The notes beneath the pieces are model-generated. The model was given only the letters and a program-made list of their open reading frames with translations, was not told the origin of the DNA and ran no database searches. From Mytilisepta virgata (lineage: Eukaryota; Mollusca; Bivalvia; Mytilida; Mytilidae), in assembly GCA_028015205.1 (NCBI GenBank), contig CM051508.1, forward strand, positions 11,674,001 through 11,738,000: 64,000 nt of DNA. Direction: 5' to 3'. Below, piece by piece: positions 21,867 through 63,086 of this stretch; positions within the stretch are counted from its first letter, which is position 1; every line of letters starts with the position of its first letter. Made by a program: the position numbers and the translations under genes.

Positions 21867-22133
21867 TTATTCTGTAAGCATGTTTGCCTTTGATCTACGA
21901 TCTCTTTGTCTATAGTCAATCAATCCATCTACATACATGAAATCGTCTTCGTCGTCATCAGTTTCATCGTCGTTTTCGTCGTTGGAATTATCTTCTATAG
22001 GTTTCAAGACTGCAGTTGCATTAAAGTCAATGTCGGAGTATATTGTTTTGTCATTTATTCCTATTATTCTGTTGCTAGGCTTTCCAGATTTAAACTCAAT
22101 TTCTACATAATTTAGTTCTTGTCCAACTGGTTT
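21867..22133 (-). CDS. IgSF receptor exon 12: ITIM-like and ITSM-like motifs, acidic tail, stop
   Basis: The terminal coding exon, 88 codons plus TAA, begins after a TATTTCAG acceptor. ELNYVEIEF fits the ITIM consensus (I/V/L/S)xYxx(I/V/L). KTIYSDIDF, with its Tyr 23 residues later, fits the ITSM consensus TxYxx(V/I). The Tyr-Tyr spacing is close to that of ITIM-ITSM pairs in vertebrate PD-1 and Siglecs (established) and too wide for an ITAM. An acidic run rich in Asp/Glu/Asn follows, then FMYVDGLIDYRQRDRR with two more tyrosines outside the consensus. The predicted role, recruiting SH2-domain phosphatases, is inference from the motifs. The + strand ORF across this exon is a shadow. Confidence 0.78.
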   Translation of the reverse strand, partial: KPVGQELNYVEIEFKSGKPSNRIIGINDKTIYSDIDFNATAVLKPIEDNSNDENDDETDDDEDDFMYVDGLIDYRQRDRRSKANMLTE

Positions 22134-22189
22134 CTGAAATAATATAATGCTAAAATTACTATGATATGAAGATGATGTCGGGTATACGT

Positions 22190-22906
22190 CAATCTAATTG
22201 GTTCCGTTGTTATATACAGCCGCGCGTGGAAATCTAACTACAGCCACTTGAGGATCATGTCTAGGGTAAAATTTGCTGAACTTTGACCAACCAATCAGCA
22301 TCTAGAAAGTCATTTACAATTTACCAATCAACGATGCGCTCTCATACATTGTCGGGGTTCAACTTCAGTTTTTGTTTGAAGAGTTTTTTTCTATCCACTC
22401 TTCCGTTGCCAAAATGTCAATGTTTATGAACGACAATTCAAACAATACACAACTGTTTGTTCTCATAAATATTTTTCTCAGTCAGTCAGTGTTAATAATT
22501 CACATGAGGCCATTGGAACTCGTTGGTAGACTTAAAAACAATAACTTTTAACGATTCAGATTATGAAATAAAAATCGCATGGAGGCTGCCATACTTGTTA
22601 TTTTACAAATCAAATATATTTATTAAAGAAAGCTCATTATATGAACATATTCAAAATACAGTGTCTCAGAAGCATACATTTGTAGGAGAGTAGTACATAC
22701 ACATAAACACTTTATACATAAATCCAAAATAATTCATAATTACTCTAGACGCTGCAACAATTTCTATGCCAGTTCAATACGCTAAGATTGTATAGCCGCA
22801 TTGCTGATTGGCTACAGCAATTTGACCCTAGACATGACCCTCAAGCAGCCACGCGTGACATATAAACAATAAAGCGCAACTGCACAGACTGATTTTACTT
22901 AGATTG
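22190..22906. mobile_element. 717-bp foldback element with 9-bp target duplication in the last receptor intron
   Basis: GGTATACGT is present exactly at 22181-22189 and again at 22907-22915. Between them the ends are CAATCTAA and TTAGATTG. The terminal regions form long imperfect inverted repeats over roughly 110 bp; for example CTTGAGGATCATGTCTAGGG near the left end and its complement with one change near the right end. A 9-bp duplication plus long TIRs is the hallmark of Mutator-like elements (established). No transposase is visible. Confidence 0.7.
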
Positions 22907-23349
22907 GGTATACGTGAGTGAGAAAACTTCTTAATAAATTTATCTTAGTACAGTTGAAAATGAAATAATAATAAAATTGTTTTTTTAACGGGATTTGAAA
23001 TATTACTGTGATTAATAATAACTTTTTGTCACAAACGTTATTATATTGTTAGGTAAAATACATGTATATTCCATTGTGTTGTGGAGTAGTTATTGGTGTA
23101 TTTATTCATTGTAACAATAACATGCATTCGAGCACATCATCGTTATAGGATGGCATTTCGCATCCTTCTATTTAACGCAAGGTGTCGTGTAGTTTATACA
23201 AAGTTGCAATGTCATCTTAAATTTCGTTTGATTTATGTGTGTTTTATTTATTTTATTTCTTGATTTTTAAGTTAACTATTGATGAAATGGTCCAATATGC
23301 TTTTAACTGATTAACAATCTCCATATAAAGTTCAAGTGAAAGACTTGTT

Positions 23350-23858
23350 GTAGATTGTTGTTTGCTTAACATCCAGTGGCAAATATTTCATATCAATGAT
23401 TATATCTAATGTTTACCGTTGCATTTTTTTACCTTAATATTGACTTGAACAGCTAAAATATAGAATTCTGAACCCAAATATATATAGTTGCTAGGGACTT
23501 TTTCATCGGTTGCTATGGACTTTTTCAGGCCAGGTCAGCTAACAATTTATCAAACAATTCAAATAGGGTTGGGAAGAAATATAAATGGGAACCAATTTTG
23601 ACTGCCACTGTAAATGGGTGGATGGTTTGGTAGGATCTGATAATTTAGCCTTCTGTAGTGGCCATTAGCATAGTCTTTCCCAAAAACAAAAACTACAGAA
23701 GTGGTCTTTAGCGTGAACCTAAAATTCCCCAAACACATCAATCACTATGGTCCGTGGTCAGGCTTTCTGTAATTATAACCTCACCACCCCTCCCCCCAAC
23801 GAGAGGGTCTCCCCTATCCGCCACCTCCTGGGGACGCACTAGTGCAAAGGTGCCTAGT
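23350..23858 (-). mobile_element. second copy of the 30.0-kb element, with internal extra sequence
   Basis: It shares AACATCCAGTGGCAAATATT at its 3' end (minus-strand reading of the tail), GGAACCAATTTTGACTGCCA in the middle, and CGAGAGGGTCTCC / TATCCGCCACCT near its 5' end with 30050-30425. About 150 bp around 23390-23545 has no counterpart in the other copy. It lies in the last receptor intron, about 130 bp from microexon 11. Confidence 0.55.
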
Positions 23859-23970
23859 TCAGTGAAAGGATATTAAAATCTAAATGAATTTTTACGAAAC
23901 AAATTTCGTGCACGTGTATACTAATTCCTTCAAACGTTTTCTCAAATGATTTTATAGAGTTGTTTCTTAC

Positions 23971-23990
23971 CTGTATATCCATTTCATTTC
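23971..23990 (-). CDS. IgSF receptor exon 11: 20-nt microexon
   Basis: A very short exon between a TTTATAG acceptor and a GTAAGA donor, encoding G-N-E-M-D-I-Q. It starts in phase 1 and ends in phase 0. This is what is needed to bring the phase-1 chain into the phase-0 terminal exon: without it the reading frame of the last exon is lost. That frame logic is the main support. Microexons in receptor tails are commonly skipped under regulation; skipping here would change the frame and remove the ITIM/ITSM segment. Confidence 0.55.
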
Positions 23991-24594
23991 CTATAAACAT
24001 AACTGGTTCGTTTGGATGCAATAAACCTTGAAAAGAAGCTAATTATAAGAATGAGTAATAAAATACAAACGGAGGAATTGTCTTTGCAAAGTAAAAGCCG
24101 ACATTCTAGTGTATAAGATTAAAATATTTTTTTATAAACAGCGCTACAATACGTTAATTCAATCTTAAGGTTAACTTTTGTTCTTAACTACTACAACGAA
24201 TTTGTAGGTTTAACTTTATTTTCATATATAGGAATATCAATAATCGTACAATCTAATTGAAACAGGTCCATATTTGACATCTTGTTTGTGAAACAGTTGG
24301 AAATAATACAATTAATCCGTCTCAAGTGGAATAACTCGACGATTTTTCTCATATTTTTCATCAAGTCTGTTTTAAATTTTTAATTGTAGATGTTTATACC
24401 ACAATAGATCAACAACAGATAAACACAGTTTGTTTTTTTTTGTTATTATTGTATTCGGAAAAAAGGCCTTAAACTTAAGAAATTTGTTTTCAAAAATTTT
24501 ATTACACAATCTCAGGTAAAATATTTTGTATAGTATTCTACAATGTTCGGTTATCTTGAAGAATTGACTTCATGTAATTTTCTAAATTTCCTTC

Positions 24595-24625
<31 letters not shown>

Positions 24626-25101
24626 CCTAAAAAAAATACCGTAAACAAATGAACCTGTTTAAGAATGATCGGTGGTCTAATAGGAAATAAATAGGATTTG
24701 AAATAGGTGTTTTAGTTTGAGAGAACATATGAATAGTAAACAAATAAGCAAGAAAAATATAGATTCATGTGCTCATTTTAGAGCTATAAAGCCTTGAAAA
24801 TTTGCAGGAAATAGGTTTTCTCTGGGTTTTTCATTGTCTTTGCATTGGCAACTTCAGTCTCTCAGAAATGTATGAAAAAATAAAAAAGGATTTCATAAAA
24901 TTATGTCAAATACCATTTTAAGGTATATATGATTGAATTATATAAGAAAAAGTAGGGGTTCGTGGGCAAAAATTTTAATGTTTAAAAAATGGATAAAACC
25001 CGAGGATTCAGAAAATCTGACAAAAAGACCAAAACATGACCAGCGATCATCCGTAATGGTCCTGCATGTGTGCATATCTTATTCCTCAATATGTATCTCA
25101 C

Positions 25102-25447
25102 AGATGGACGGATAAATTATTGTTTAACGTCCAATAGCAACCATTTAAGTGCATATCAGTGAGAGAAAATGTTGATATGAATATGAACCCTGCCTTGTAC
25201 TAGACCAAAATGCCGAGCCGAATTTTTATCGTGCTAGCTCAGGAGGTCCGCAGGAAGACATATCTTCCCAACCGGACACATTATTCTGACTCAGAGCCAA
25301 CCAGTCGTTTGCTCTTACTCCTAGATGGTACGTGCTTGGAGGAGAAGTTTTTTTATGTTTTCGTTGGAACAAGTCGAGGATTTAACCAGCGACATCCTGC
25401 ACTCGAGGCGAGCACGCTACCACGAGACCATCGAGGCGGTACTATAT
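25102..25447 (-). mobile_element. tRNA-headed SINE, near full length
   Basis: The reverse complement aligns end to end with 54711-55070. The head (near 25400-25445) has the tRNA-like pol III A-box region GTGGTCTCGTGGTAGCGTGC and a degenerate B box. The body shares the ATGTCTTCCTGCGG block, and the 3' end shares the TTGCTATTGGACGTTAAACA tail. It sits in the receptor intron between exons 10 and 11. Short ORFs on both strands here are SINE-derived. Confidence 0.7.
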
Positions 25448-25637
25448 ATATCTCTGAGTATCTATTATTATAGTAATTCGTTTTACAAATGTAAAGCAAA
25501 CATTGTAGATTGAAAACAAACAGTATATCCTGGAACTTGAACAAAAGTATCTATTCTTAACATAAATAAGGGAATGAGCATTGTTCACACGTTCATTTGA
25601 GGTTTCTCCACAACAAGCATACAAAACAATTCCTCAC

Positions 25638-25775
25638 CTTCCCGATTCACCATTCTCTGATCCGAACCAAGGCCACAACGAGTTCTCTCATTATTGATTT
25701 TTTTTCCATAATTCTTTTTATTCATAAGACAAGCACCTTGTGTCTGATATAACAGGTTATCTGCTGCAAGGTTTT
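25638..25775 (-). CDS. IgSF receptor exon 10: cytoplasmic tail, second YQTQ motif
   Basis: A phase 1-1 exon of 138 nt, acceptor ATCTTTTAG and donor GTGAGG. It encodes NLAADNLLYQTQ at its start, then a basic, Asn/Lys/Arg-rich stretch (MNKKNYGKKINNERTR). It is related to the previous exon over the first 12 residues. L-x-Y-x-x-x does not meet the full ITIM consensus because Gln replaces the +3 aliphatic residue. ORFs running across both ends of this exon are open by chance. Confidence 0.65.
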
Positions 25776-26222
25776 CTAAAAGATATGATAAGATATAATA
25801 TGCCTGTACATTTTTAACTAAACAGCATGTAGGAACAATATATGAAACTTCTTTCATTTAATGCAAAGAGAGTTTCTGTAACAGGCACTCCATCAAAAAG
25901 ACAACGCAGCTTTTACTTGCATTTTTTTAAAATCACATTCCGTCTAGTGTGCTAGTTGCTATTATTTTCCTATTGAAGATCAACATTAATGGAATTACAT
26001 ACTAAATATGACCACTAATTCTATTCTAACAGGAATTTACAATATACCTTATCTAACAGACATAACAAGGGACATAAGAAGAACCATAATCGTTTGAAAA
26101 TAAAGGTAGATTACTTAAATTATGGTAAGTAAAATAAAAGTCTGTGTTACGTTAACGTGAATAATCGCGAAAAATGTTTTTTTCTTTTACATGTATTAAA
26201 TGATCATAAATATTACTGCACT

Positions 26223-26595
26223 TCATGATTTACTTGGAAGGCTTCGTAAGGTTATTGATTTTAGCAGCCCAGCATGAAAGTTATTTAGACCTTTGTTCCT
26301 TGTAAGTAAAGTCAAGAAATACCAAAGGGATATTCGAAGGAGAGAAAAATCGTAACAACTGGCAAACTCCGGAGAACAACTAAGACGAGACCAAAACAAT
26401 ACATGCACTACAATTAAAAACTAAAAGCATATGAACAACATGGACCCCACCAAAAAACCTGGGGTAGACTCAGGTGCTCCGGAAGAGTAAGCAGTCTCTG
26501 CTTCCTGCAGGACACCCGCCATGGTGTCTATGTCAAATCCGATATGCGGAAGGGATAATATCTATGGAACAGGTCCATTTTCAATAACAATCCAA
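26223..26595 (-). mobile_element. variant 3' UTR repeat, copy 1
   Basis: Shares AAGTCAAGAAATACCAAAGG, GGATATTCGAAGGA, CAAACTCCGGAGAACAAC, ACATGGACCCCACCAAAAAA and CTCAGGTGCTCCGGAAGAGT with 61335-61530. The GTGCTCCGGAAG core is also in the 28.7-kb UTR repeat, so this is a related subfamily. It lies in the receptor intron between exons 9 and 10. Confidence 0.55.
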
Positions 26596-27815
26596 AGATA
26601 CTTATATTAGATATAGTAAATTTATACTATGCTGTATACGACACATTTCAAGGAGTTACCTCTCATCAGCAGCATTAAAACCGAAACATTTGGAAGACCA
26701 AAAACCAAACTTATTTTAAACAAGAACTACTCATAACCAAAAATACCGAATTAGGAAGCCAAATTTCAGCTAAGGAGATCTACCATGTGCAATACAAGGA
26801 ATGAACCCTTAGTATTTCTATTGTTTTTTAATTTTTCTAAATACTGGTAATTTCTGTAACAAATCAATATGTATAGAATAAAATGTAAACCGTTATATAT
26901 TAATTTCTCCCTGATTTATTTAAAACGGTTTCAAATTTCCCTAATATTTTGTGTGTGGTCAACTAGTATTTGCAGTAACAACCTGGCATATCACATCATA
27001 TCTTAATTTAATTTCGGTCAATCGGCTAATTAAGAATTGCTGACATAGTAGTCAAACAGAGGCAGTTTGAAATTTATTTAGAGGAAACTCAGCGTGGTCG
27101 ACCACAACAATTTCCTGATCGATTAACATATCCTGAAATGGTGTCTTTGTACGCTATGGACAAGCCATCTTCATGTGAAATTCACATCACAAATTTCATG
27201 TGAAATTTAAATATCTTCATCAAACCAGGGAAAATGCATTATTTTCAATCACTACTCGCAATGTAAAAGTATTTTTTTCACCATTTCAAAAGACATTTTC
27301 ACGTTAAATTCTCATACAATTATGTGGAAATTCATAATGAATTTCAGATGAAAGATAATGCAGGTCATTTTTACTACATGTAACTACATGGCCAATGCAC
27401 ATAATTTTAACGTTAAATTTCACATGTTGGCCAGATGAAATTGAAGGTAGGAAAAATGTACATTATGTATTTGTTCACGTTATGTGTTGCCTTTACATGT
27501 ATCTGTTTCAATGGCCTATCTATGACTGTTTTTTAGACCAAAAGATTTTTGCTCAAGAGAATGTGGAATTCACGTGAAAATAAGATAATTTCTGTTCATA
27601 AAGTAAGTTTCTGTTTGAAACTTCTCGTATTCTCACTGTAACTTGTTTACGTCGATTCTACAAAAAGCGATAGAGAACAAAAACTCAAACGAGGATTACA
27701 TAAGTTTTGTCCATAATATCATGTTTATCTGAAAGCCGAAAACATCAAAAGAATGAGAGAAATCTTTGTATATTTGTTATGTATATATGCTTTTAAAAAC
27801 AAATTTAATAATTTT

Positions 27816-27960
27816 AATGCATAAATGTGCACATTTCGTCGATTTACGACTCATCAGTTGTGTTAAACGCCAAAAGGTTGTCAACCAAAACGATATTCCA
27901 AATCGATGAAGTGCAAACAATGGCCAAAAGGGTAAAGCCAAAACCATCTAAGGACACAAT
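27816..27960. repeat. interspersed repeat, 'tgtgcacatttcgt' family, copy 1
   Basis: Shares TGTGCACATTTCGTC, GACTCATCAGTT and a following stretch rich in CCAAAA with 33390-33560. Both copies are in the same orientation and both lie in introns of the receptor gene. The second half decays into AAAA/CCAAAA-rich low-complexity sequence. I cannot assign a class. Confidence 0.55.
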
Positions 27961-28152
27961 CTCCGAAACAGAGGCTCTTGTATCTCCTACGTAGGAAAGT
28001 ATCAATGTCGAGCCGTTATCGAAACACTAGCAACATATCCGTATAAATTGCACTTATATTTTAACTGAAATTAAGTGAACTTATTTTAATACTAAATATT
28101 GTGAAGTTCTTTATATAGCGATTTGTAATATATGAAAGAGATTTTAAATTAC

Positions 28153-28269
28153 CATGATTTTGTTCTTCTCTGCCTGTTCTTATGCTGGGAAAGGTGGGGG
28201 TTTGCAGTAGTCCTATTTGAGAGTTATCAGGCTGTGATTGGTAGATATCATTTTCTACTGCAATTCTAT
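28153..28269 (-). CDS. IgSF receptor exon 9: cytoplasmic tail, first YQSQ motif
   Basis: A phase 1-1 exon of 117 nt, acceptor CATTCTAG and donor GTAATT. It encodes RIAVENDIYQSQ followed by a Pro/Ser/Thr-rich linker (LLQTPTFPSIR) and a polar end. The R-I-A-V-E-N-x-x-Y-Q-S-Q block matches N-L-A-A-D-N-x-x-Y-Q-T-Q in the next exon, so the two look like duplicated tail exons. The tyrosine is preceded by acidic residues, as in many kinase substrates. Placement rests on splice phase and on the shared motif. Confidence 0.65.
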
Positions 28270-28739
28270 CTAGAATGGTAAAAAAAAACAATCAGATAAA
28301 AAATATGACTCAATGTTTATTAAATTATGTTAAGCTTTTTACTTTAGATAAAATAGATATCACGAAAAAGACCCTTAAAACATTCGTAGAATAAAATAAC
28401 ACAATTTACTAGAAAATAGTACCTATTCCTGTTCTCACTTAATTCAAACTTGTTGATCTTTATTGTTCGTTATAAGACCAATAATAAACCCGGTGATCAT
28501 TCAAATACCAGCCACGGATATAAAACACAATCGTCTGACTTGAATAATTACTTCCGTTAGAAATTGAATATCATTGAAGTGATGTAATTGTATAATCATT
28601 TTGAACTTGTATCTCATTGAGGCGTAGTGCAAGCATACATCAAACAAATATTGTACGTTACTCTGTAAACATGATAAAGAAAACAATAACACTTCTTGTG
28701 ACTTTATATAAGTTCATATATTAAACAAAATAAATTCTT

Positions 28740-29030
28740 TATATAAAAAGCCCAAACATACCTAAGGAGCAATAAAAAAAACGTAATCCATTGGACAGAA
28801 AAACCATGGAAATGAACAACCACAAGCACAACAAACAAACACAGAAAACTAAAAAACAATGAACAACACGAACTCCTATAAAAACCAGGAGTAAACCCAG
28901 GTGCTCCGGAAGGGTAAGCAGTTCCTGCTCCGTATACGGCACCCGTCGTGAAGTTCAACAGAATCAATCCTGGGGAAGTCACAAATCGATTGAGGCACAT
29001 GAAAGGTTACGACAGTGGGAACAGGTCCAA
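28740..29030 (-). mobile_element. 3' UTR fragment of an RT-bearing retroelement
   Basis: It matches, in reverse complement, the segment that follows the RT C-terminal ORF at 43620-43830: GTTCCCACTGTCGTAACCTT, TTTGTTGTGCTTGTGGTTGT, AATGGATTACG and the end GCTCCTTAGGTATGTTTG. It lies in the receptor intron between exons 8 and 9. The minus ORFs of 67-98 codons here are in this UTR. Confidence 0.6.
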
Positions 29031-29064
29031 CATTAATTTGTAATTCATCCTAAAAAGTACTTAC

Positions 29065-29096
29065 CTTGTATTTCATTCATTGCAATTCTTGAATTA
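29065..29096 (-). other. possible alternative or decayed tail exon (32 nt)
   Basis: A sequence between an ATTTGTAG acceptor and a strong donor (AAG/GTAAGT), lying between exons 8 and 9. In one frame it reads N-S-R-I-A-M-N-E-I-Q, resembling the R-I-A-V-E-N-x-I-Y-Q start of exon 9. Spliced from the phase-1 end of exon 8 it would instead reach TGA after six codons, giving a receptor with almost no tail. It is therefore either a fossil duplicate exon or a poison exon. Not included in the main model. Confidence 0.35.
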
Positions 29097-30020
29097 CTAC
29101 AAATACATAAACGTTGTTGTATGTTTACATATATTACAGATATAAAAGATAGAGGCAGTTAAGATATCATAACCCTGGTTATTGAGACTTATTTAGTGTG
29201 TATCAGGTCACACTATCTGACACTTTGTTCGGTTTGTATTTTTTCACTTCATGCCATCGTCAATTGGATGTTAAGTTTTTAAGATAACTTTAGTTTATTA
29301 GCAAAAAAAATGGTTAGGCTACACAAAATATGCGAGATGCATTGATGTTCACCTTCCATGGGATCAATTAATTTGAATTATCAGAACTAAAAGGCGTTAT
29401 TTTATGTAACAAAACTCAACTACTGAATTTATAAAACGTCGTTGAATTTTTCTTGCTTGTACTAATTCTTGTTAAGATTATTTTCTAAAATTGACACCAT
29501 AGTATGTAAATTTGTAAAAAGTTCTATGTCATGAATGAATTTAGGATAAGTGCTTATAATGGTTAAAGTTAAAAATAACAAAACATTGTGAACCCTAATG
29601 GATGGTGATTCCCATGAAAATATCGTTGGACTGATAAAATAGACATGAATATCTACATGTGCATACAAAGAGCAATTCAAACATGACAAGTAAAAAACTG
29701 GAAATATAAATGAAACACAAAAATGTCCTAAAGCTAGAAACCATGAACTTTAGGATTTCTTCATAAACTTGGATTGAACCCAATATTTGAACATCAAGTA
29801 GTTCGTCCTGCGTGTTTTATTGCATATGGCATTCTTCGTATTGATAAACAGTCCGTTAGGTGAGAGGAAAAGCATTATAATACATCAGGAACCCATGGAC
29901 AACTACGTACTGCGTATTTGATGGGCTAAGAAACGTCAAGCGCAACGAATTGCTTAGAGGTTGACAAACAAGAAATGAATACATTTTTTGCATAATGATC
30001 CTGCAGTTGATTTATATTCT

Positions 30021-30027
30021 CAAAAAC

Positions 30028-30065
<38 letters not shown>

Positions 30066-30425
30066 AACGTCCAGTGGCAAATATTTCATGCTTCTTCAGG
30101 ACGAGAACCAGTTCACATAATATTCACAATTTAAATAGGAGTGGGACAGGACCAAAGGGGAACCAATTTTGACTGCCACTCTAAAGCGAGGATGGTTGGG
30201 TAAGGTCGGGTAATTTAGCCTTCTGTAGCGGCAATAGCCTACTTTTTTTCAAAAACTACAGAAGGGTTCTTTAGAATACAGGGAGTGTGGCATTCTCAAA
30301 ACACGTTACCCGTATTATGACCTGACAGCCCCCCCAAACGAGAGGGTCTCCTCTATCCGCCACCTGGGGACGCGCTAGACAGCTCTATGGGTTGAGTCCC
30401 CGTGATCCATCACAGGTGCCTAGAA
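30021..30425 (-). mobile_element. SINE/LINE-tail-like element with (CAAT)n 3' tail
   Basis: Read on the minus strand the element ends TTTGCCACTGGACGTTAAT followed by about eight CAAT units (30031-30064 on +). It contains CGGATAGAGGAGACCCTCTC and GGCAGTCAAAATTGG, shared with the copy at 23350-23858. A short simple-repeat tail is usual for elements moved by L2/CR1/RTE-type machinery (established). It is inside the receptor intron between exons 8 and 9. Confidence 0.6.
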
Positions 30426-30436
30426 ATAATATTGAA

Positions 30437-30442
<6 letters not shown>

Positions 30443-30492
<50 letters not shown>

Positions 30493-30506
30493 AGATAGAT
30501 AGATAG
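30443..30506. repeat. compound microsatellite (AT)n(AG)n(ATAG)n
   Basis: Three simple repeats in series just upstream (gene direction) of the (CAAT)-tailed element. The minus ORF ending in L-S-L-S/Y-I-Y-I is the translation of it. Confidence 0.8.
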
Positions 30507-31884: not shown

Positions 31885-31989
31885 CTTTCTTAACAAATAG
31901 AACTCCAAATACAACACAACATAATACGAACAGACAACTGCTTACGATTCCTATTATCATTGCAAAAGTATATTGATCTGAAGGAAGCT
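31885..31989 (-). CDS. IgSF receptor exon 8: transmembrane helix
   Basis: A phase 1-1 exon of 105 nt, acceptor TTTTTACAG, donor GTAAGC. After a short juxtamembrane stretch (LPSDQYTF) comes a hydrophobic run of about 23 residues starting AMIIGIVSSCLFVL and ending VVFGVLFV, then a basic KK stop-transfer signal. There is no charged residue within the helix, so it would not recruit an ITAM adaptor by the usual salt-bridge route. This fits a receptor that signals through its own tail. Confidence 0.82.
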
Positions 31990-32936
31990 CTGTAAAAATA
32001 AAAGCAAACATTTCGTAACACGATTTAAACATCTATTTAATTTAGTAGAAGAGAGATATTTTCTATATTAACGCAATATAAAATTCGTGATTATATATAT
32101 ACAGGCAATGTACTTGTATTTGCCTGTATTAGACATTTCCAGTTTCGAATCCGAAACCGAAACCAACTGTTAACTACATATACATTTCTGTTTAAATTCT
32201 TATATATTAATTATAGTTAAACCAAATTTATATCAGCATGATGAAGTTTACAAAGCAGCTTAATAAAAGTTGTTGAAACAATAAACAAATACTTCATTAC
32301 TGTAATATACATGTGGTTTAAGAATTATTGAAATAAACAATTTAAACAGAAATATATATATGTAGTTACCAGTTGGTTTCTATTTCGGATTTGGTTTCGA
32401 TTTCGGTTTCAGTTTCGGCGAAAATACTGGAAATGTGTATTATTTGTTCTTTGAAAAAAACCACAAGTCATGTAAATGTGTGTTATTCTAAATCGGAATG
32501 AGAATTTCGATACTTTCCAGGGGACGGCCAAGTCCAATGTTTGAACTATTCTAAGATAGCAACAAACTACAAAACGAACAAAGCCAAAGCCCCCAAAGTA
32601 CCACAGTAAAATGCTTATAATTTTATGCACTTCCTATCTAGAACAGGGTCATCATTTATTACATAGATCACGTCTCCTTATACTTAATATACAGCAATTA
32701 ATGTCGTGATCAGGGTCTAGGTTTGAAGTGGCAGTTGGCACAGAGACGCCAGAATTAAATTCAAACAAAAACCATAATTGAATTCGGAAGGATAATTATG
32801 TAATGTTCTTGAAAGTAATTCCACTTTATCTTTATAGTTTTTGAGAACCGTTATTAGACTAATTGTTTTAATTTTACAGAAACAACTAAGTTGTCAGAGA
32901 ATACACACATTGGGAGAATGCATATGTTAAACTTAC

Positions 32937-33227
32937 GTAATGTTCTGATCGTAAATGGATCGGTCTTGTTACTACTTCCAACCGAATTGTTTGAATAAAC
33001 ACGTATTACATAATTGGTGTCTGGTTTTAACTGCTTCAGCGTATGAGTAAACATCAGTGTGTGATCATCCGGAAATGGGCCATGTAATTTCCACAACTTG
33101 TCTGTTAGTGTTTTGATCTCCACAAAAAAATATTGATCGAAACCCCCATTGAAATTCCTTTTCCAACTGACTACGATTGTATCTTCTTCCGATTCAACCT
33201 TTACGTTTTTTGGTACTTCTGGCACAT
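32937..33227 (-). CDS. IgSF receptor exon 7: fibronectin type III domain
   Basis: A phase 1-1 exon of 291 nt ending at donor GTAAGT. It shows the canonical FN3 signature: VPEVPKNVKVES at the start, IVVSWKRNFNGG with the core Trp of strand B, a Y-F-V-E-I strand C, LKPDTNYVIRVYSNNSVGSS for the L-x-P-x-T-x-Y-x-x-R-V-x-x-x-N-x-x-G-x-S motif, and FTIRTL at the end. A single FN3 between the Ig block and the membrane is the nephrin/adhesion-receptor layout. The ORF continues past 32937 into the intron by chance. Confidence 0.87.
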
Positions 33228-33389
33228 CTTAATAAGACAAATCAACAAAACAACATATCATTTTTAAGATAAGAATGAAATAGAATATTGAATTATTTAC
33301 TACAAAAGCGACGTTAGCTTAATGGTCAAGAAGTATATACAAATACATCTGTACATTTATGGTGAATATACTTAATAAAGATCTTTGAT

Positions 33390-33560
33390 GCAAATTTTAA
33401 TGCACAAGATGTGCACATTTCGTCAATTTAAGACTCATCAGTTTCGCTCAAGGCCTAAAAGGCTGAAAACCAAAACAACAATCCAAAAGTTGAAGAGCAA
33501 ATTCAAAAATTCCAAAATGACCAAAAAGGATAAAACGATACTTCAGGTAGCGAATTCCGA
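33390..33560. repeat. interspersed repeat, 'tgtgcacatttcgt' family, copy 2
   Basis: The second copy of the family at 27816, just upstream (in gene direction) of the FN3 exon. The 67-residue, Lys-rich + strand ORF across it is a product of the repeat's A-rich composition, not a gene. Confidence 0.55.
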
Positions 33561-34337
33561 ACAGAAATCCATTCAAAATAATGTGTGAGTGGATTTTGTG
33601 AAATATTTAACACACAAGACGTCATATTCATCATTGTTAATCGTTATTCTATTCAGATGAGGTCTATTTCATCTGTAATGCAGTTCAATACTCAATAAAT
33701 TTCTATGGCACACATCACACTTTTCCAACAAACTGTCTCAATCTGATAATTCTGTCCATATCTTTTGTACTGTTTTTCATTGATTATTGTTAATTCTATT
33801 TTTGTCTTTAAAATTGTGTTTGCTCGTATGGAAAATTTCTTTCAAACCAGTGATAAACTATGTAAAAGAATGAATCAGAATCAAGAGATCCAAGGCAACA
33901 TAATCCTTACAACTCCATACCTTGAAAAAAACAGAAAGCAACAAAAAGATCACAGAAATGACATGTGGTGCATTCAAGCTTTGTCAAAATCTCTTAATTG
34001 AGACTTTAGATAAACAACAAGGTCAACAATGACATACCAATGAATCAAATCTACACAAAAGGTAGATCTCGGACAAAACGAAACATAATACAGCAGAGCA
34101 CAAAACACAAACATAAATGCAAAAGAGAATCAGGACAGTCTGACACTGAACAGTGGTGGATTAAACCGGTTTTATTTGTACGCAAACCTCCCCAATCTGG
34201 TATATAAAACATACCGTTTAAGCCAGTGCAGAATGATTACAGTGAGAGTGACCGCTGACTAGAAGTGCAAAAATTTGTCGGACGGTACATAATGTAGATA
34301 TCAGGGTTAGACTTTGTCGTTGTAATTAGATACTTAC

Positions 34338-34676
34338 TGGCCGATTTAAGTTCTACAGTAAAGTTTGCAGTACCGTGGTTATTCTGCAACTGAAATTCAT
34401 AGAAGCCGAAATCTTCTTCTTTGATGTCACTGCGAAAAAAGGTGATTTCATATCCTTCCATTAAAACTTCAACACCAAAGATTTCATCTTCAACTTGTGT
34501 TGGAGTATAAGTAAGTAGATCGGCTTTTGATTGTTTCAAGTCCAAGTCTATGCCATTTTTTGAAACACTGATTTTTTCAAACAATGGATAACTATATGCA
34601 TTCAGAATAATTGTTGCATTTTGCTGGTATCTTCCAAATTGCGTCTTCTTATTCTTTGAAACAAAACTAGGCCTGT
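34338..34676 (-). CDS. IgSF receptor exon 6: Ig5, membrane-proximal, lacks both core cysteines
   Basis: A phase 1-1 exon of 339 nt with a perfect donor (GTAAGTAT) and a TTTTTAG acceptor. The fold is still readable: NATIILNAYSYP occupies the first-cysteine strand with Asn where Cys is expected, and EEDFGFYEFQLQNNHG matches D-x-G-x-Y-x-C-x-x-x-N-x-x-G with Phe instead of Cys. NFTVEL forms the last strand. Loss of both cysteines together is typical of Ig-like domains that drop the disulfide, not of random decay, since the frame, phase and sequons are kept. It could alternatively be a diverged FN3-like sandwich, but the Y-x-F-x-x-x-N-x-x-G pattern favours Ig. Confidence 0.75.
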
Positions 34677-35619
34677 CTAAAAATTAAAAAATAGTTGCTT
34701 ATGTATAAATATTTTATTATACGCATTTAAAAGCCAAAAAACTAAACATGTTTACAATCATTTGTGTTCATGAAGTAATATTGTAAAAGCCGTAACTATA
34801 TCACAGAGTATCATATTTATATGATATATATGGTAATCAAAATCATGAAAATCTGGATTATTATTGCGCACAACACGGGGATATGAATCTGTCTCTCAAT
34901 CATGTTGATGATGCCTTATCATCATGTTTAAGGGATAATATTCATACATGGAAAATATAAAACATATGTATTTCATTTTAAAAATGTCTTTAAAAATAAC
35001 CGTAAAAGATCGAAAAATTACTGTATATTCGTGAAAGTGACATTTTCATTTGTTCATTTAGTCCTGCCTATATTGTATCACATTAGCCTTGATCAAAATG
35101 TAGGTGAAATCGAAAGCAGGCAATGCATTTTTAAATTCAACACACTGTCATGACTGTCAGGCAAATTACTATCCTGACTCTCTGTTGTGTCCATGTTTTT
35201 TTTTTTTTTTTGTACTCTTTTATGTTATTTTTTGTCCGGCGTTGATTGATTGGTATATTATTGTTGACCTTTTGCTGATTATTTACATTACTGTTTAGTT
35301 TCTAACTAAGACAGAGTACCTTGATTCGCTATTGCCTCGGTGTTTGTCTTTTGTGATCTTTTATGTTAATTCATCTGACATCATGTCGTTTAGATGTCGT
35401 TAATTCACAGGTTTTTACTTTCGAACTGTCCTGTTATTTATTTTCTTATTTACATATGAATTTCTTTAAGACTGGTCTGCTCGGAATCAGTATAATGTGT
35501 CTGAATGGGGTAGTGTGTCCCGAAAAATAAACATTAAGAGCAACCAAATACTAAAGATGTTGTGTTTTGTTGTCATCAACAATAGTCTTTATCGCTACTA
35601 TATATCATCAAATTGTTAC

Positions 35620-35910
35620 CTTTAAACTGAACAGTCATGTTTCCTGCCATAATCTTATTTCCTGTTCTGTCTGAGATGCCGTTTTCGGCATTGCAAATGT
35701 AAACTCCATTGAATTTGTAATATGAACCATTGTAATAATTGGCCTTGAATTGAATGCTTGAAGAATTGTTTAATACTCGTAACGGACTCCCAGAGTTGGA
35801 CAGGTGAATCCAGGAATGAAATGTATACATTTCTGGTCTTCCTCGTGGGATACATTCCAAAACAAAAATGTCATTTATGATCTTTTTATCAATTTGTATC
35901 ACTGGCGGAT
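35620..35910 (-). CDS. IgSF receptor exon 5: Ig4
   Basis: A phase 1-1 exon of 291 nt, acceptor TTTTTAG, donor GTAACA. Core cysteines are in FVLECIPRGRP and GVYICNAENG; a tryptophan (HSWIHL) lies between them at about the right distance. The N-A-E-N-G-I stretch after the second cysteine matches I-set usage. Sequons: NNSS, NGS, NMT. Reading continues past 35620 into intron sequence only by chance. Confidence 0.8.
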
Positions 35911-36406
35911 CTAAAAAGAAAACGAGATAGATATGGTGATTTTTTTTTCATTAGACGAATATTGCTAGTTTATAATACTATTTTCCAATTAATAATACTA
36001 TATTTATTGTGTGAAAAACATGTAAACAACACGTATAAAATTATCAAAAGCTTAATCACATTTTGATAGAAAATATTTGTATGTATATTTTCATTCGATA
36101 AATGTCATGTGATACTATTATATCTCAGTTGGTTGTTATTTCAGCTTTGACTGTTTTTGGATCGTTTGATTATGTTGTTCATATCAATTTGCCAATGTTC
36201 ACCTTTTCAGAGCCTTCGGTCATTTGCGTAATTGACTAAGACTAAGACATGCGCGTCACTGCGGCTGTTTGAAGTACAGAAGTGAAAGTGATGTCCCAAG
36301 CGCATGTGTAGTTTTCTTTGTAAAGAATTTATTGAATTTTACAACTATATCGTAGTATTGATTTTAAATCTTGTGATTTAACATTGTTAAGTACATAAAT
36401 TCTTAC

Positions 36407-36670
36407 ACTGAACAGTGATGTTTACATAGCTTGAACTTCCTCCCAAAATATTTTCTGCCTTGCAATAATAGGCGCCAGCATCAGTTCTATTGATGTTCAC
36501 AATGCTAATAATTAATAAAGACGCTTTCGAGGTACTTTTCAGGAGCATACTGTCTTTAATTATAGTAATATTTGCTGCAACTGGGTTTGCGTCAACAGAG
36601 CAGCGTAATGATATGCTTCCTCCTTCTCTGACTGATGTAATATTTGCATCAAATTTTAAATATGGTCTGT
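36407..36670 (-). CDS. IgSF receptor exon 4: Ig3, I/C2-type
   Basis: A phase 1-1 exon of 264 nt, acceptor ATTTCAG and donor GTAAGA. It reads SVREGGSISLRCSV for the first cysteine strand and NINRTDAGAYYCKAEN for the D-x-G-x-Y-x-C strand, followed by the A-x-N-x-x-G turn of I-set domains. The usual core Trp is replaced (NITIIKDS). It has four sequons (two NIT in the first half, NRT, NIT at the end). It has no early ATG and is easily missed in ORF scans; the opposite-strand ORF covering it is a shadow. Confidence 0.83.
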
Positions 36671-37619
36671 CTGAAATGATAATAGAAATAGATGGAGATA
36701 AATTATAAAGACTGTGTTAAATCTTATTAATGGAAAAAAGGAAAGCATTACTTTCTCATTTCATAAATTAGTATCTTATTATAAAAAAACAAAAACATTA
36801 TTTACACTGAACATGAAACATTAGTAAAACAAAGACCTTTAGTATTTGGACTCGTTTATTTATTCCAATACGTCTACACATTTATATGGTTCATTATTTT
36901 GGTTCTTTTTTGTGATGATTCCTTACACATGTAACAATTTTATTGCAACGATTAATGATAATATCAAAAAGATCTATGTTTAAGGAAAAGGAAAAAGTTT
37001 TAGGTAAACACATGCATACCCTAAAACGCGCCATAAATAAAACTGATAACATGCATGGATGAATATTGAATAACGAATAGAAAACGACGAAAAATCAATA
37101 TTTACATGTACAAAGTTGTTGGTTTGTCAGCCATTTATTTATGCAATTTCTATTGACTTTTAGACAAATCGAAAATAATTTTGCAGTAGTTGATGTATTT
37201 ATTATTCTTTAGGTGTTTTCAGGATTTCAAATCTGTTGAGGGAAAAAAATGTCAAAAGCTCAAATGTTGATGGTTGAACTATCTGGAATGTAGAAAATCT
37301 ATAGATTACTTTGTTAACTGCAAGTCACTAAAGATACCATCTATAAGATTGGTTGTAAAAAGCCTTGTTTTTAAAATTTATGTTCATTCGACAATAACCA
37401 TCTTATCTATGAAGTTTGTTTGACAATTTCGATTATTTTCCAATATTCATACATCGGTTAAAAGAAAAACATATTAGATCCGTATAGAACCGCCAAAAAA
37501 GTCCTTCACGTTTAATGACCTTTAATTCTTCAATAATATTTTAAGTGTCTTATGATGTATAAGAGGAAGCCCATTGATCGGCAAATTCCGCTTACAAGTG
37601 CTAATACATTTAAACGTAC

Positions 37620-37898
37620 ACATAATGTCTAAAGTAACATTTTTCCGTAGCGGTTTCTGCAATGCACAACTTCGTACTTCACACATATATTGCTCTTGAT
37701 GGTTCAGCTTATGTGGCAAAATTGTAATATTCAAGTGTCCTGGTCCACCGGACCCCAGCATAGATGACCTATTGTACCAAGTAATTTCTTCCGGTGGAAT
37801 TCCACTTGTAACACTACAAACCAATGGAAGACTATGGTTCTCTACGCCAATCAAACTATCTTCAGTAGATTTCATGACTGTTATATCTTTTGGTTCAA
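37620..37898 (-). CDS. IgSF receptor exon 3: Ig2, C2-type
   Basis: A phase 1-1 exon of 279 nt after a TTTCTTTAG acceptor, ending at donor GTACGT. The Ig2 pattern is LPLVCSV, then GIPPEEITWYNRS (P-x-x-x-I-T-W is common in C2-type domains of Kirre/nephrin and CD80-like proteins), then QYMCEV for the second cysteine. Three sequons are visible (NRS, NIT, NVT). An open reading frame continues past the donor into the intron, but the donor match, phase and loss of domain pattern there argue that translation stops following it at 37620. Confidence 0.82.
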
Positions 37899-38193
37899 CT
37901 AAAGAAAAAACTCTTAGTTGTGAGAAAATAAAATAAAAAAATATTTCAGTTATTCAAACATTTATTTGTGCTCATGGTTTTGAAACAGTACAAATTCCCC
38001 AATGCATTCGATTTTATTTTTGGACAATTTATACCTCGCTACTGGGGTATGGTCGAAGGAGTATTGCTTACAATCCACTTCAAGTTTGTATTATAAATGT
38101 TTATTTTTAATTGTTAAATTGTTTATATTGTTGTAAAACTTTGAAGAGTGTAAAAAAAAAAAAAACACTGGATTATATTTGTACGCCAAAATA

Positions 38194-39055
38194 CTGTGAA
38201 TTCATTATTATTCGTTTTATACTAATTTTCGTGCTTTTCGTGGGTCCTAGTAAACCACGAATTTAGATATCCAACGAAAAATAATACTTCTTCTTTAGCT
38301 TAAATGCACTGAAGTTTGAAACCACGGAGTTTTGATGTACCTATCCGAGACAACATTGAAGAATTGCGTTTTTACGTTTTTACAGCATGTATTTGGATAC
38401 TGACATATGATGAGTCAGTTATATCCATAGAGGATATAGTGTTTCATGTAATTTTGTCTTTGGTAACATATAAACGCTCAAATGATTTTCTTTAAAAATA
38501 TCTTGACTGTGTAAATTGTCGCGGAATTCACTTCCGTTTTTTTTTATTCAAACATTCAAAAAAATATTAATTCTAAGTAGGCCTAAACAATACATACTTT
38601 CTGATAAATTAAAGTAAAAACATCTTGTCAAAAGGTAATAAAGCAAAAATTATTGGTCGTAATCGGAATAAATATATATGTATATGCCTCGAGGTATTTG
38701 GTGACAAGTGATTGCAATTTTGTCAATACATATTTCACATCTGATTACCCTCACAAGTAAGTAATTATGGATTTTGTTAATCTTGTTAAATATATGACAA
38801 ATTTGAAGCATCTGTTTGTTAGACTCTTTTTTATAAGCGCTTAACATCAGTACTTTACTGTACAATATCAAAGTCTGATCGGCACGTTTTGTCGAAGTAT
38901 TTTCTTGATATCTGACGTGCCAAGCAACGAATTTCAGTATTTCAACAACTTTATATTTTTTCTAAGCCAGCAATCCACGAATTTACGTATCACACGAAAT
39001 TCCTTTTTTTTCTATCCACGAAAATTGGTATCCACGAAAATAAATGAATCCACAG
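38194..39055. mobile_element. 862-bp TIR element (MITE) in receptor intron 2
   Basis: The ends are inverted: the left begins CTGTGAATTCATTATTATTC, and the right, read in reverse complement, begins CTGTGGATTCATTTATTTTC. Both continue into a CGTGG-type segment repeated inside (CCACGAATTT). A TA dinucleotide flanks each end (38192-38193 and 39056-39057), the target duplication expected of Tc1/mariner-type insertions. No transposase ORF is visible, so it is non-autonomous. It lies about 165 bp downstream of the Ig1 donor. Confidence 0.65.
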
Positions 39056-39220
39056 TAGTCCGAAAATTACCATTTTTATTACATTTTATCCTCTTAATGA
39101 AAACTTTAGTAATGTGGAAAATCTTTCCATATCTTTAACTTTATATATATATATAGAACATGTATGAGCTAAAAAGTACACCTCATAAAAATTTCACGCG
39201 TCCAACACACATGTACTAAC

Positions 39221-39544
39221 CTTTTATTTTCAAATGAAACGAGGTTTCCTGTGGTGGCGTTGTCATGTCTTTTAATTGAAAGCAGCGATAAGTACCTTCT
39301 TCTGATAAAGATACATTGTTTATTTGAAGATTGTATTGCCCATGCTGCTTACTTCCAACAATTGAAAATTTATATCTGTTGTTAATTTTGTTGCTTATAA
39401 TGTTTCCATCCGCATATAATGTATTATTTGATACACTGTCTTCTCTCGGTCCATCCCAGGTACAAGCGCTAGTTGGGGAAACTGAACAATGTAATACTAC
39501 AGTTTCTCCATTCAAGGCATAGATCATCTTTTGTTGTGTGGTGT
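39221..39544 (-). CDS. IgSF receptor exon 2: Ig1, V-type, Kirre/NEPH-like
   Basis: A symmetrical phase 1-1 exon of 324 nt. It shows the V-type pattern: GETVVLHCSV with the first core cysteine, CTW with the core tryptophan, then RYKFSIVG, GQYNLQINNVSLSEEGTYRC with the second core cysteine and the D/E-G-x-Y-x-C signature. The S-I-V-G and G-x-Y-N-L-x-I pattern is like the first Ig domain of Kirre/NEPH/Syg adhesion proteins (established family knowledge; similarity judged by eye). An additional cysteine before the tryptophan could pair within the domain. The acceptor is TTCTTAG and the donor GTTAGT. A + strand ORF over the same bases is a shadow. Confidence 0.85.
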
Positions 39545-41218
39545 CTAAGAAAGCAAGATATAGTAAATATCAAAGGTACCGTCAAACACTCTCAGAATTA
39601 TAATAACCTTAACATAGCCATTTAAATCTTCGATGGAAGATAACTTTTCCATCCTTCATTTTTTTGTAATTTTCGTTGAATATTCATTGTCTATCGCATT
39701 AAAGTTACAATTACCCCTTTCTGAATTTACTTGAACTAAGTCATTGTTATATTGAATCTTTTAAAGATAGCAACACGTAGATTACTTTTTGTGTTCTTAA
39801 AAATTTAATGCACTTATTTTGTTTTTCTTTTTTTTTATCTTTGGTTGCCTTTAATATATTTTTTAAATTATAGATTAATAAATGTCCTGGTCCAATATGG
39901 GTCAAGGGATGATACCCCGTCCGATATGGATTAGGTCATATCTTAATCTGTTTATCCTTGACAGCTTAAGTACGTTTATTCTATTTTATTTTGAAAAAAT
40001 CGTTTTCTACTGGCTGATAAGTCTCCTCATGTCTGCCCTACACAACCCAATGAAATCGTACTCAAATCGTAAAAAAACTTACAATAAAATCATTTATATC
40101 CAATCAAAAAAGTTATAACAGCCTGCAGATTGTCAAAACAAAAATATTGTAACCATATTTGGATGACGCGTCCTGTCTGGGTGCAATACACATACACTAT
40201 ATTTGGAGAGGTCACCACACATCATTGATCCTTTTCACTCATATTTGTTACACGCCACATTAAAAAATCAATAAATCGTCGGAAAAATCTTCAATCAGAT
40301 TGAAAACACATATTTTATTCTAGGTTTGGATATTATGAGTTATGACCCTGTGTCTGTAGTATCATGGAAATTTAGACGGTGGACAAAATTGTTGTATAAA
40401 GGCGAGGCGTTGCACAATATGATTTGAAATAACAAAAATTTCATCGTACATGAAAATATTAACGTTTTGTTCTATTTCTTAATCAACAGTATCCATAAAT
40501 GGCACGCGTTTATAGTTTGAACGCAATGAGGGGGAGTGGGTGTCTCAAAACCTATCTCCTCAAAATCGAATCGAATCAAATTTTTGACATAATTATTATT
40601 GCACATTACTTAATTATACCCTGGCAGCCGATTTATGAATTTTGAATTGAGATATGGGCGTTTCAACCAATGTTCCCCTAGCAACCACATTGTGATGTGC
40701 ACAATTAGGTCATTGTGGAATATTTGTGTCCAAGTTTGATCAAATTCGGTCAATGCCAAGGGGTCGATTTGTTTCGGACAGGAAGACACACACAGCCAAT
40801 CAAACGCGGCAGACGATAAAAGCAACTTCAGTCGAACTGACAATAATTAGCTGGGGAGTGATTGTATATAAATAACTCAATATTTACAATGCAATATTTT
40901 ATTAATTCTTTTTGTACCTGTCAACCTTTATATATGAAATCCTGCCCTTAATTGGCGACTTTATATGACTTTAAATAATCTACCTACCAGCAATTTTGTA
41001 GTAATCGATGTCTTGTGGTTTGTGCCGTTTTTGTACAAAGCAGTATATGCAATGTAAAAGCAGGCTAATGCGTTTTACATAATATGTAAGGTTATATACA
41101 CTGCCTATCAACTAAATTTATATTTATCATTCTAATAAGGTACAACTCTAACCATACTTTTTCGTAAATGTTCTTTGTCGGATCGCATCATAACAACCAT
41201 AACCAGTACAACACTTAC
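39545..41218 (-). other. intron 1 of the IgSF receptor
   Basis: About 1.7 kb between the signal-peptide exon and the Ig1 exon. I see no repeat of the families described elsewhere and no additional open phase-1 exon. Several ORFs on both strands are AT-rich chance frames. Confidence 0.6.
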
Positions 41219-41298
41219 CGTTTACGATGCACTTACAGTGCCATGATGGGAACATCATACAAAAAACAACCAATCTAATAATTAAAACTCCCATTTAG
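41219..41298 (-). CDS. IgSF receptor exon 1: start codon and signal peptide
   Basis: The ATG is at 41294-41292. It encodes 25 residues with a hydrophobic core (begins MGVLIIRLVVFCMMF) typical of an ER signal peptide. The exon ends one base into a codon at a strong donor (GTAAGT, from 41218). A pyrimidine-rich acceptor ending in CAG sits four bases before the ATG, so a non-coding 5' UTR exon probably lies further up (above 41300). The triplet just before the ATG is an in-frame TAA, which fixes the start. The phase-1 end joins the phase-1 start of the first Ig exon, giving Asp at the junction. There is no obvious TATA box nearby; the promoter is expected upstream of the missing UTR exon and was not located. 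Confidence 0.75.
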
Positions 41299-62866: not shown

Positions 62867-63072
62867 TGTAATATCCTAACTTTAATTATCAATCTGGAAT
62901 TTATGTCTATTATTGTGATCCATAGATTACTTTGTAGAATGTGGTTGGTTATCTCCCTTGATTAAAGAATCAGAACAACAGCATGGTTTGCGTCTTTATA
63001 AACAAAGACATCTACCTTATAAAATGAACAAACACCCTTGTTAAACACACCATAGCCTCACGAATCGTTACA
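62867..63072 (+). repeat. putative 5' LTR of a Ty3/gypsy-type element
   Basis: A 206-bp segment starting TGTAATA and ending GTTACA, giving a TGTAA/TTACA inverted pair. It contains a TATAAA at about 62997 and lies just before a TGGCGACGAG stretch (63074) that would serve as primer binding site (PBS starts with TGG) and the gag ATG. The 3' LTR lies outside the window, so the ends are not confirmed by comparison. The PBS tRNA is not assigned. Confidence 0.6.
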
Positions 63073-63086
63073 GTGGCGACGAGAAA

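Follow-up and report, generated by a model that had tools for sequence, protein, structure and literature searches.

Paired ITIM- and ITSM-form motifs and a second tail class in a clustered family of predicted Ig/FN3 receptors of bivalves

Immunoglobulin (Ig) receptors with immunoreceptor tyrosine-based inhibitory motifs (ITIMs) are not new in molluscs, where the oyster proteins CgIgIT, CgIgIT2, and CgSiglec-1 are reported precedents of the present case. The gene studied here lies on the minus strand of a 64,000-nucleotide stretch of the Mytilisepta virgata genome (G000:C1:11674001-11738000, in an assembly of 1.03 Gb), referred to below as the window, and is predicted to encode a receptor with Ig and FN3 domains whose tail pairs an ITIM form with the form of an immunoreceptor tyrosine-based switch motif (ITSM). 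Judged from the gene sequences, ITIM/ITSM (type-A) tails and YDEIG/YENxYQ (type-B) tails on homologous receptors are interleaved in one 1.3-Mb cluster, and the tyrosine module and the two predicted tail classes are well supported.

In the oyster literature, CgIgIT2 of Crassostrea gigas is reported to inhibit cytokine expression, and signalling through IgIT to inhibit haemocyte responses; the text of an oyster review labels the CgIgIT2 motif an immunoreceptor tyrosine-based activation motif (ITAM), contrary to the title of the paper that it cites. CgIgIT and CgIgIT2 are, like the predicted window family, bivalve multi-Ig transmembrane receptors of the ITIM type. The pairing of ITIM with ITSM, the clustering, and the second tail class are features found here, none of which is described for CgIgIT or CgIgIT2 in those accounts, the comparison being by description only. 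CgSiglec-1, an oyster Ig protein, is reported to act as an inhibitor of apoptosis, phagocytosis, and cytokine release, and it is described as two I-set domains, whereas the window receptor has a V-set domain, four more Ig-like domains, and an FN3 domain. Tyrosine motifs are also reported in germline Ig-type proteins of allorecognition loci: the fester co-receptors of Botryllus carry ITIM, hemITAM, or other tyrosine motifs, and Alr of Hydractinia carries ITAM or ITIM. The ectodomains of both differ from that of the window receptor, the Botryllus FcoR one being made of V, sushi, and two C2 domains. The Botryllus and Hydractinia loci are reported to be polymorphic and linked to allorecognition, whereas the mussel family is known here from its genes alone. 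Pinna shows an expansion of hemicentin-, nephrin-, and contactin-like Ig genes, which are numerous in bivalve genomes and have functions stated to be largely unknown (PMC13093298). Relatives of the window gene bear nephrin- and hemicentin-like names as in the Pinna expansions, a likeness by name only. A paired ITIM/ITSM family in bivalves was not described in the literature searched, which was covered by title and abstract opening and with most subscription journals outside its reach.

The window gene was modelled by conceptual splicing as 12 exons running from 41294 to 21867 on the minus strand, which join in phase to a protein of 842 aa. The exons are as follows:

41237..41294, minus strand, exon 1: start codon and signal peptide; 17 of 19 residues identical in each of two neighbouring paralogues
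39221..39544, minus strand, exon 2: N-terminal V-set Ig domain
37620..37898, minus strand, exon 3: second Ig domain, just below the Pfam cut-off
36407..36670, minus strand, exon 4: third Ig domain (Ig_2/I-set)
35620..35910, minus strand, exon 5: fourth Ig-like domain, weak in Pfam, with a cysteine pair
34338..34676, minus strand, exon 6: fifth Ig-like domain, weak in Pfam, without cysteine
32937..33227, minus strand, exon 7: fibronectin type III domain
31885..31989, minus strand, exon 8: transmembrane segment, a hydrophobic stretch without a charged residue
28153..28269, minus strand, exon 9: membrane-near part of the tail
25638..25775, minus strand, exon 10: tail, with ADNLLYQT (Y699) at 25741-25764
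23971..24026, minus strand, exon 11: tail linker, phase 0 at its end
21867..22133, minus strand, exon 12: final coding exon, with the paired tyrosine module and the stop

All 11 introns are GT-AG, and the junctions comprise ten of phase 1 followed by one of phase 0. The initial annotation had claimed 12 minus-strand exons in phase, which stood, and a length of 836 aa, which did not. A single-sequence protein search found P0001 alone, an 'NCAM2-like' protein of M. trossulus with 35% identity over 96% of the query. P0001 is collinear with the window protein from the V-set through the transmembrane segment to ENxIYQSQ, LHYVEV, TIYADI, and DDFMYIDGIIDY, which agrees with the frame claimed earlier for the tail exon. 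The predicted splicing is supported by this homology to a 35% identical protein, collinear from the V-set to the tail motifs, and the 12-exon receptor model holds. An AlphaFold model of P0001 (five sequences) had a mean pLDDT of 36.3 and was not used.

With the whole protein as query, the Pfam models V-set, Ig_3, Ig_2, I-set, and fn3 exceeded their cut-offs. Exon by exon, the cut-off was passed by the V-set, Ig3, and FN3, and Ig2 (27.8 vs 30 bits), Ig4 (15.1 vs 30), and Ig5 (14.9 vs 23.7) fell below it; Ig5 contains no cysteine. The signal peptide, FN3, and transmembrane segment first proposed for the receptor stand, and the description "five Ig" is fair by position, with Ig4 and Ig5 weak. The Kirre-like label given to the ectodomain proved non-specific: titin, MAG/Siglec-4, and FCRL5 outrank SYG-2, which comes fourth among the PDB matches, with SYG-1 at E 7e-5, and all of these are generic Ig matches. 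Specific orthology to Kirre/NEPH (IRM) proteins was not supported given the place of SYG-2 and the presence of an FN3 domain, which Kirre/NEPH proteins are not known to have. Orthology to vertebrate Siglec/PD-1 receptors was not supported either, as the best homologues are from Mytilus and the vertebrate titin, NCAM-like, and CD22-like matches score lower. Beyond mussels, the tail has relatives in Mya and Mactra.

Seven tyrosines are present in the window tail, and its tyrosine motifs are as follows:

28235..28258, minus strand: VENDIYQS, NxxY-type, Y660; with counterparts in P0001 and in 9 of the 11 other regions of the family
22098..22115, minus strand: LNYVEI, ITIM form, Y763
22029..22046, minus strand: TIYSDI, ITSM form, Y786
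21924..21959, minus strand: acidic DDDEDDFMYVDG motif, Y821; present in P0001 and several paralogues

Y763 and Y786 are separated by 23 residues, as had been claimed, and both motifs are conserved in paralogues and in other bivalves. The ITIM form was scored as [SILVT]xYxx[ILV], the strict ITSM as TxYxx[VI], and the relaxed ITSM as [TSA]xYxx[VI]. When the 194-residue cytoplasmic part was shuffled 20,000 times, an ITIM form followed by a strict ITSM at a spacing of 12-35 was obtained in 0.12% of cases. Only one of the 186 open reading frames in the window (stop to stop, at least 60 aa) held an ITIM/ITSM pair at 20-28 spacing, namely the window receptor's own. The LNYVEI/TIYSDI pair is not due to chance. 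NxxY motifs of the ENxIYQS kind are found in 10 of 12 family regions, the window included. In vertebrate PD-1/Siglec-type receptors, the ITIM and/or ITSM are spaced about 23-26 residues. The window receptor is like Siglec/CD22, PD-1, and SLAM-family receptors in this spacing and in having a V-set domain first. In contrast to vertebrate Siglec, PD-1, and SLAM receptors, the bivalve module conserves an F after the first motif, an I[HR]G linker, and a D after the second; an FN3 domain before the transmembrane segment further separates the bivalve receptor from these and from CD22.

Similar tails are numerous in the mussel genome. The window tail exon matched 16 places and a paralogue tail returned 38 rows; counted by hand from several searches, there are at least 43 distinct tail-exon places. 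Tails were read at 36 of the 43; one place (L058) had no readable tail, and six were unread, two of which (C1 17.188 and 17.225 Mb) have an in-frame TGA. Among the 36 tails, window included, the ITIM form is present in 35, a strict ITSM follows it in 29, and [TSA]xYxx[VI] follows it in 32, with a tyrosine-to-tyrosine distance in these 32 of 22-27, most commonly 25. One C13 tail (L040) was counted as a miss for both motifs, though TPYADI comes after its SNYIEM. Conservation was calculated by position in an alignment of 39 tails, consisting of 29 mussel tails less than 90% alike and 10 from other species that were selected because they carry the module, all 10 with the ITIM form and the strict ITSM. 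Column entropy is 0 bits at both tyrosines, 0.17 at the leucine at -2 of the first motif and at the linker glycine, 0.56 at D+4, 0.68 at the linker isoleucine, 0.84 at T-2, and 0.92 at I/V+3 of the second motif, compared to 2-3.5 bits in many of the remaining columns. This positional conservation is stronger evidence for the tail module than the motif counts.

Ectodomain exons accompany most of these tails. Of 11 other tail regions, 10 have one or more family Ig or FN3 exons upstream of the tail in the same orientation, and four of the 11 match each of exons 2-7 (in one, exon 3 as a 23-residue piece only). The C13 region, when examined for ectodomain exons, showed tails only. Ten ITIM tails lie on C1 at 11.15-12.37 Mb. 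At C1:12042827-12043078 and 12043869-12044114 (L002, L003, L021), two very similar ITIM/ITSM tail exons were observed 1 kb apart; lying downstream of one ectodomain, they are possibly alternative last exons or the product of exon duplication.

The module was also found in other bivalves. A profile of six family members retrieved 27 proteins at E <=1e-20, and the top nine were from M. trossulus and M. coruscus. Below these were Mya arenaria proteins, with one from M. coruscus and one from M. californianus among them, at E-values like those of titin and vertebrate NCAM- and CD22-like proteins; therefore, it is the tail and not the ectodomain score that marks the kinship of the Mya proteins. With a Mya arenaria tail as the query, 11 proteins including itself were found (Mya 8, Mactra 3), with names such as nephrin-like and hemicentin-like, and the module was present in all eight of the 11 that were read. 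In Mya it reads roughly LIYADLxF ... IHGxDxMTDYAxVDLTKKAEPLPESDD. Both tyrosine motifs recur in relatives (P0001, Mya, and Mactra), which speaks against their absence from all orthologues, named in the initial annotation as a refuting outcome. The predicted tyrosine module is common to mussels and heterodont clams and is an old bivalve module. No oyster or gastropod proteins were among the matches of the family-profile and Mya-tail searches, which holds at that sensitivity only. In total, 19 other-species proteins were considered: 11 with the module (10 were used, as the tails of P0036 and P0035 are the same), four with type-B tails (P0002, P0006, P0009, and P0026), and four ending before the module (P0005, P0007, P0011, and P0021). 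Members of this one family (P0001 to P0009, P0011, P0026) have many unrelated public names, such as NCAM2-like, MAG, HMCN, PVRL1, and NEGR1, and P0002, P0006, and P0009 look like neighbouring genes fused in annotation.

The second tail class came from the FN3 exon. As a query, it gave 39 matches, of which the 16 on C1 (11.28-12.43 Mb) exceed the ten C1 ITIM tails. Downstream of one FN3 exon (L064) is a single exon with a transmembrane segment, HYDEIGTINYNMI, GDGYENPYQPLQ, and NDGYEHLYQPLQ, which resembles the tails of M. coruscus P0002, P0006, and P0009 and M. californianus P0026. This type-B tail is found at 20 distinct places: 12 on C1 (11.23-12.43 Mb), two in or beside the C6 cluster, and six on C7. 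The M. californianus type-B tail had no match in this genome, compared to the 20 places found with the local one. YENxYQ is present in all five type-B tails that were read and YDEIG in four, the other having NYAEIRT instead. Closely similar type-B copies at 12.23-12.43 Mb have one in-frame TGA in five of six cases, and a copy at 11.98 Mb has three stops; these C1 copies are either shorter tails with a natural end or decayed genes.

Type-A and type-B receptors appear to have homologous ectodomains. Residues 1-600 of M. coruscus P0002, which include the transmembrane segment of this type-B receptor, align to the window protein over 593 positions with 29% identity. In the V-set, type-B P0026 shares 54% identity with type-A P0003 and 60% with type-A P0004, more than the 47% and 54% that type-A P0001 shares with the same two, and identity between P0003 and P0004 is 70%. 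For the window V-set, the three matches that rank next below its two sisters (37-42%) are placed upstream of type-B tails in the same orientation, an assignment by position only. The order of the tails on C1 is ABBBABBAAABAAABBABBABB (one B, at 11.98 Mb, is the copy with three stops), and a runs test on these 22 tails gave 12 runs vs a shuffled mean of 11.9, so A and B are mixed as by chance. The A-B-B units that seem to recur at 12.20-12.43 Mb therefore carry no statistical weight. As for a paired-receptor locus, the two tail classes are mixed in the cluster, and the homologous type-B ectodomain was read in this genome at FN3 only.

The window gene itself is a mosaic. Its DNA, introns included, is about 76-89% identical in alignment with two sister genes, g1186 and g1204, from exon 1 to intron 3. 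Past intron 3, alignment is limited to dispersed repeats and short pieces, about 100 bases at exon 7 and, with g1204, 71 bases at exon 12. The junction is placed as follows:

36671..36860, minus strand: approximate mosaic junction at the end of intron 3; continuous similarity to the two sisters stops at 36854-36860, before exon 4

Synonymous (dS) and nonsynonymous (dN) divergence were estimated pairwise by the Nei-Gojobori method on exons 1-7 and 12, with exon 1 contributing 19 codons. Against g1186, dS ranges from 0 to 0.28 in exons 1-3 and from 1.2 to 2.6 in exons 4-7 and 12; against g1204, the ranges are 0.17-0.35 and 1.4-2.2, respectively. Low dS in exons 1-3 and dS close to saturation in exons 4-7 and 12 indicate a fairly recent exchange that brought the signal peptide, V-set, and Ig2 to a backbone of greater age. 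In these pairwise estimates against the two sisters, the V-set exon has a dN/dS of 0.91 and 0.67, Ig2 of 0.28 and 0.26, and the tail of 0.27 and 0.24. Between g1186 and g1204, identity is about 97% over long stretches, with too few changes for dN/dS. The single receptor of the initial annotation is, by this evidence, part of a large clustered family in which N-terminal exons have been exchanged and the tails fall into at least two classes.

The genome also contains candidate partners for the tail. A query with the tandem-SH2 region of human SHP-2 found two SHP-2-like tandem-SH2 loci, C4:18955933-18963805 and 19039643-19050574, each in four pieces spanning both SH2 domains. Compared to human SHP-2, the N-SH2 pieces are 71-82% identical and the C-SH2 pieces 54-80%. 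Two SH2 pieces reach TAA stops, which were taken as exon ends. The adjacency of the loci suggests a local duplication of a phosphatase gene.

We give a probability of roughly 0.6 to the reading that this is a clustered Ig/FN3 family in which tails of the SHP-2-docking type stand beside sister tails of another signal, resembling paired receptors. The window gene belongs to a large, clustered set of bivalve genes for predicted single-pass Ig/FN3 receptors, and a ligand would be bound, probably via the V-set/Ig2 part at the N terminus. Phosphorylation of the ITIM-form and ITSM-form tyrosines by a Src-type kinase would follow, and the paired phosphotyrosines would hold a SHP-2-like phosphatase by its two adjacent SH2 domains. 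The docked phosphatase may restrain a kinase pathway and, most likely in haemocytes, determine the threshold for cell activation. Sister genes with a homologous ectodomain and the YDEIG/YENxYQ tail (possible YxN/YxxL docking) would send a different, perhaps opposite, signal, and the cluster would act like a paired-receptor locus. We infer phosphorylation, SHP-2 binding, inhibition, the sign of the signal, the cell type, the ligand, and the immune role from the gene sequences. Of the inhibitory-type tail combined with a Kirre-like ectodomain that had been proposed, the ITIM and ITSM with PD-1/Siglec-like spacing and the SHP-2-like loci in the genome speak for the former, and the Kirre-specific part was not borne out.

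Several observations weigh against this reading. SHP-2 can act as a positive signaller, so the sign of the tail signal could be either, and the C4 loci are known from their SH2 domains alone. The counts of retained motifs are ascertained, since the searches for paralogue tails used a motif-bearing exon as query, and the module itself was the criterion for choosing the ten tails of other species. Four of the 36 tails depart from the consensus (three C6 tails with VSYxEI, hence V at -2 of the second motif, and L040 with SNYIEM first), and in a further three the residue at -2 of the second motif is A or S. The motif spacing of type-B tails is not that of an ITAM, and in-frame stops occur in the matched stretch at 7 of the 20 type-B places. 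The contrast of a fast V-set with a slow tail is not seen in all pairs: between g1137 and g1128, dN/dS is higher in exon 6 (0.70) than in the V-set (0.48), with the tail at 0.21, and between g1228 and g1237, the tail reaches 0.67 on seven changes.

The strongest alternative, to which we give a clearly smaller but real chance, is that these are cell-adhesion proteins of the nephrin/hemicentin/NCAM kind for tissue or shell patterning, whose tyrosine pair recruits SHP-2 as a positive Ras/ERK regulator, or other SH2 proteins, with no immune role. A similar architecture is used in adhesion, which also counts against an immune-type receptor family; the ectodomain matches include SYG-2, NCAM2, nectins, and contactins, and family members are annotated as NCAM, PVRL1, NEGR1, HMCN, and nephrin-like. 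Vertebrate adhesion receptors with SHP-2 docking exist. However, tens of copies, some of them recent duplicates (g1186/g1204), would be unusual for patterning receptors, as would N-terminal exon exchange, a high V-set dN/dS in some pairs, and two tail classes in one cluster.

An endocytic or scaffold tail, with PTB or AP-2 adaptors binding its NxxY and YxxL/V motifs and only a secondary likeness to ITIM/ITSM, is improbable. The membrane-near NxxY motif is consistent with it, as are NPLY/NPMY motifs in the clam relatives, and the YxxV/L core suits AP-2. AP-2 would need neither the -2 and +3 residues nor a narrow spacing, but the spacing in this family is narrow and Leu-2 of the first motif, Thr-2 and +3 of the second, and the tyrosines are among the least variable positions. 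That the gene model fuses two neighbours and the tail belongs elsewhere is very unlikely, since, even though the exons span 19 kb and exons 8-11 match only themselves in the genome, which also counts against the family reading, P0001 is collinear from the V-set to both motifs, ectodomain exons lie upstream of the tail in ten other regions, and all phases agree.

A bolder version of the paired-receptor reading is tentative, and we consider it rather less likely to be right than wrong. It would make the cluster a germline, recombining paired-receptor complex, with ITIM+ITSM and YDEIG/YENxYQ classes on V-set-led ectodomains and exchange of N-terminal exons, analogous to the leukocyte receptor and natural killer (NK) complexes of vertebrates but of independent origin, possibly policing self vs foreign cells (microbes or contagious cancers). 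Contagious cancers occur in Mytilus and Mya. A large cluster-forming group of genes with nephrin-, contactin-, and hemicentin-type labels shares a conserved ITIM+ITSM module from mussels to clams, amid a second tail class. If the expansions in Pinna and elsewhere are of the same family, an unexplained expansion would become a testable signalling hypothesis. If true, this would place beside Hydractinia and Botryllus another case of recognition receptors with phosphatase-type tails, and molluscs may have evolved their own brake-and-accelerator receptor system.

Other features of the window were also noted. Just upstream of exon 1, at 41818-42603 on the plus strand, are open reading frame fragments that we presume to be related to reverse transcriptase. 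A tandem array with a 166-bp unit, 13.7 copies, and 93% matches occupies 55972-58241. A long open frame with CCHC zinc knuckles at 63045-63998 on the plus strand reaches the window end, and we take it to be a retrotransposon gag from its sequence.

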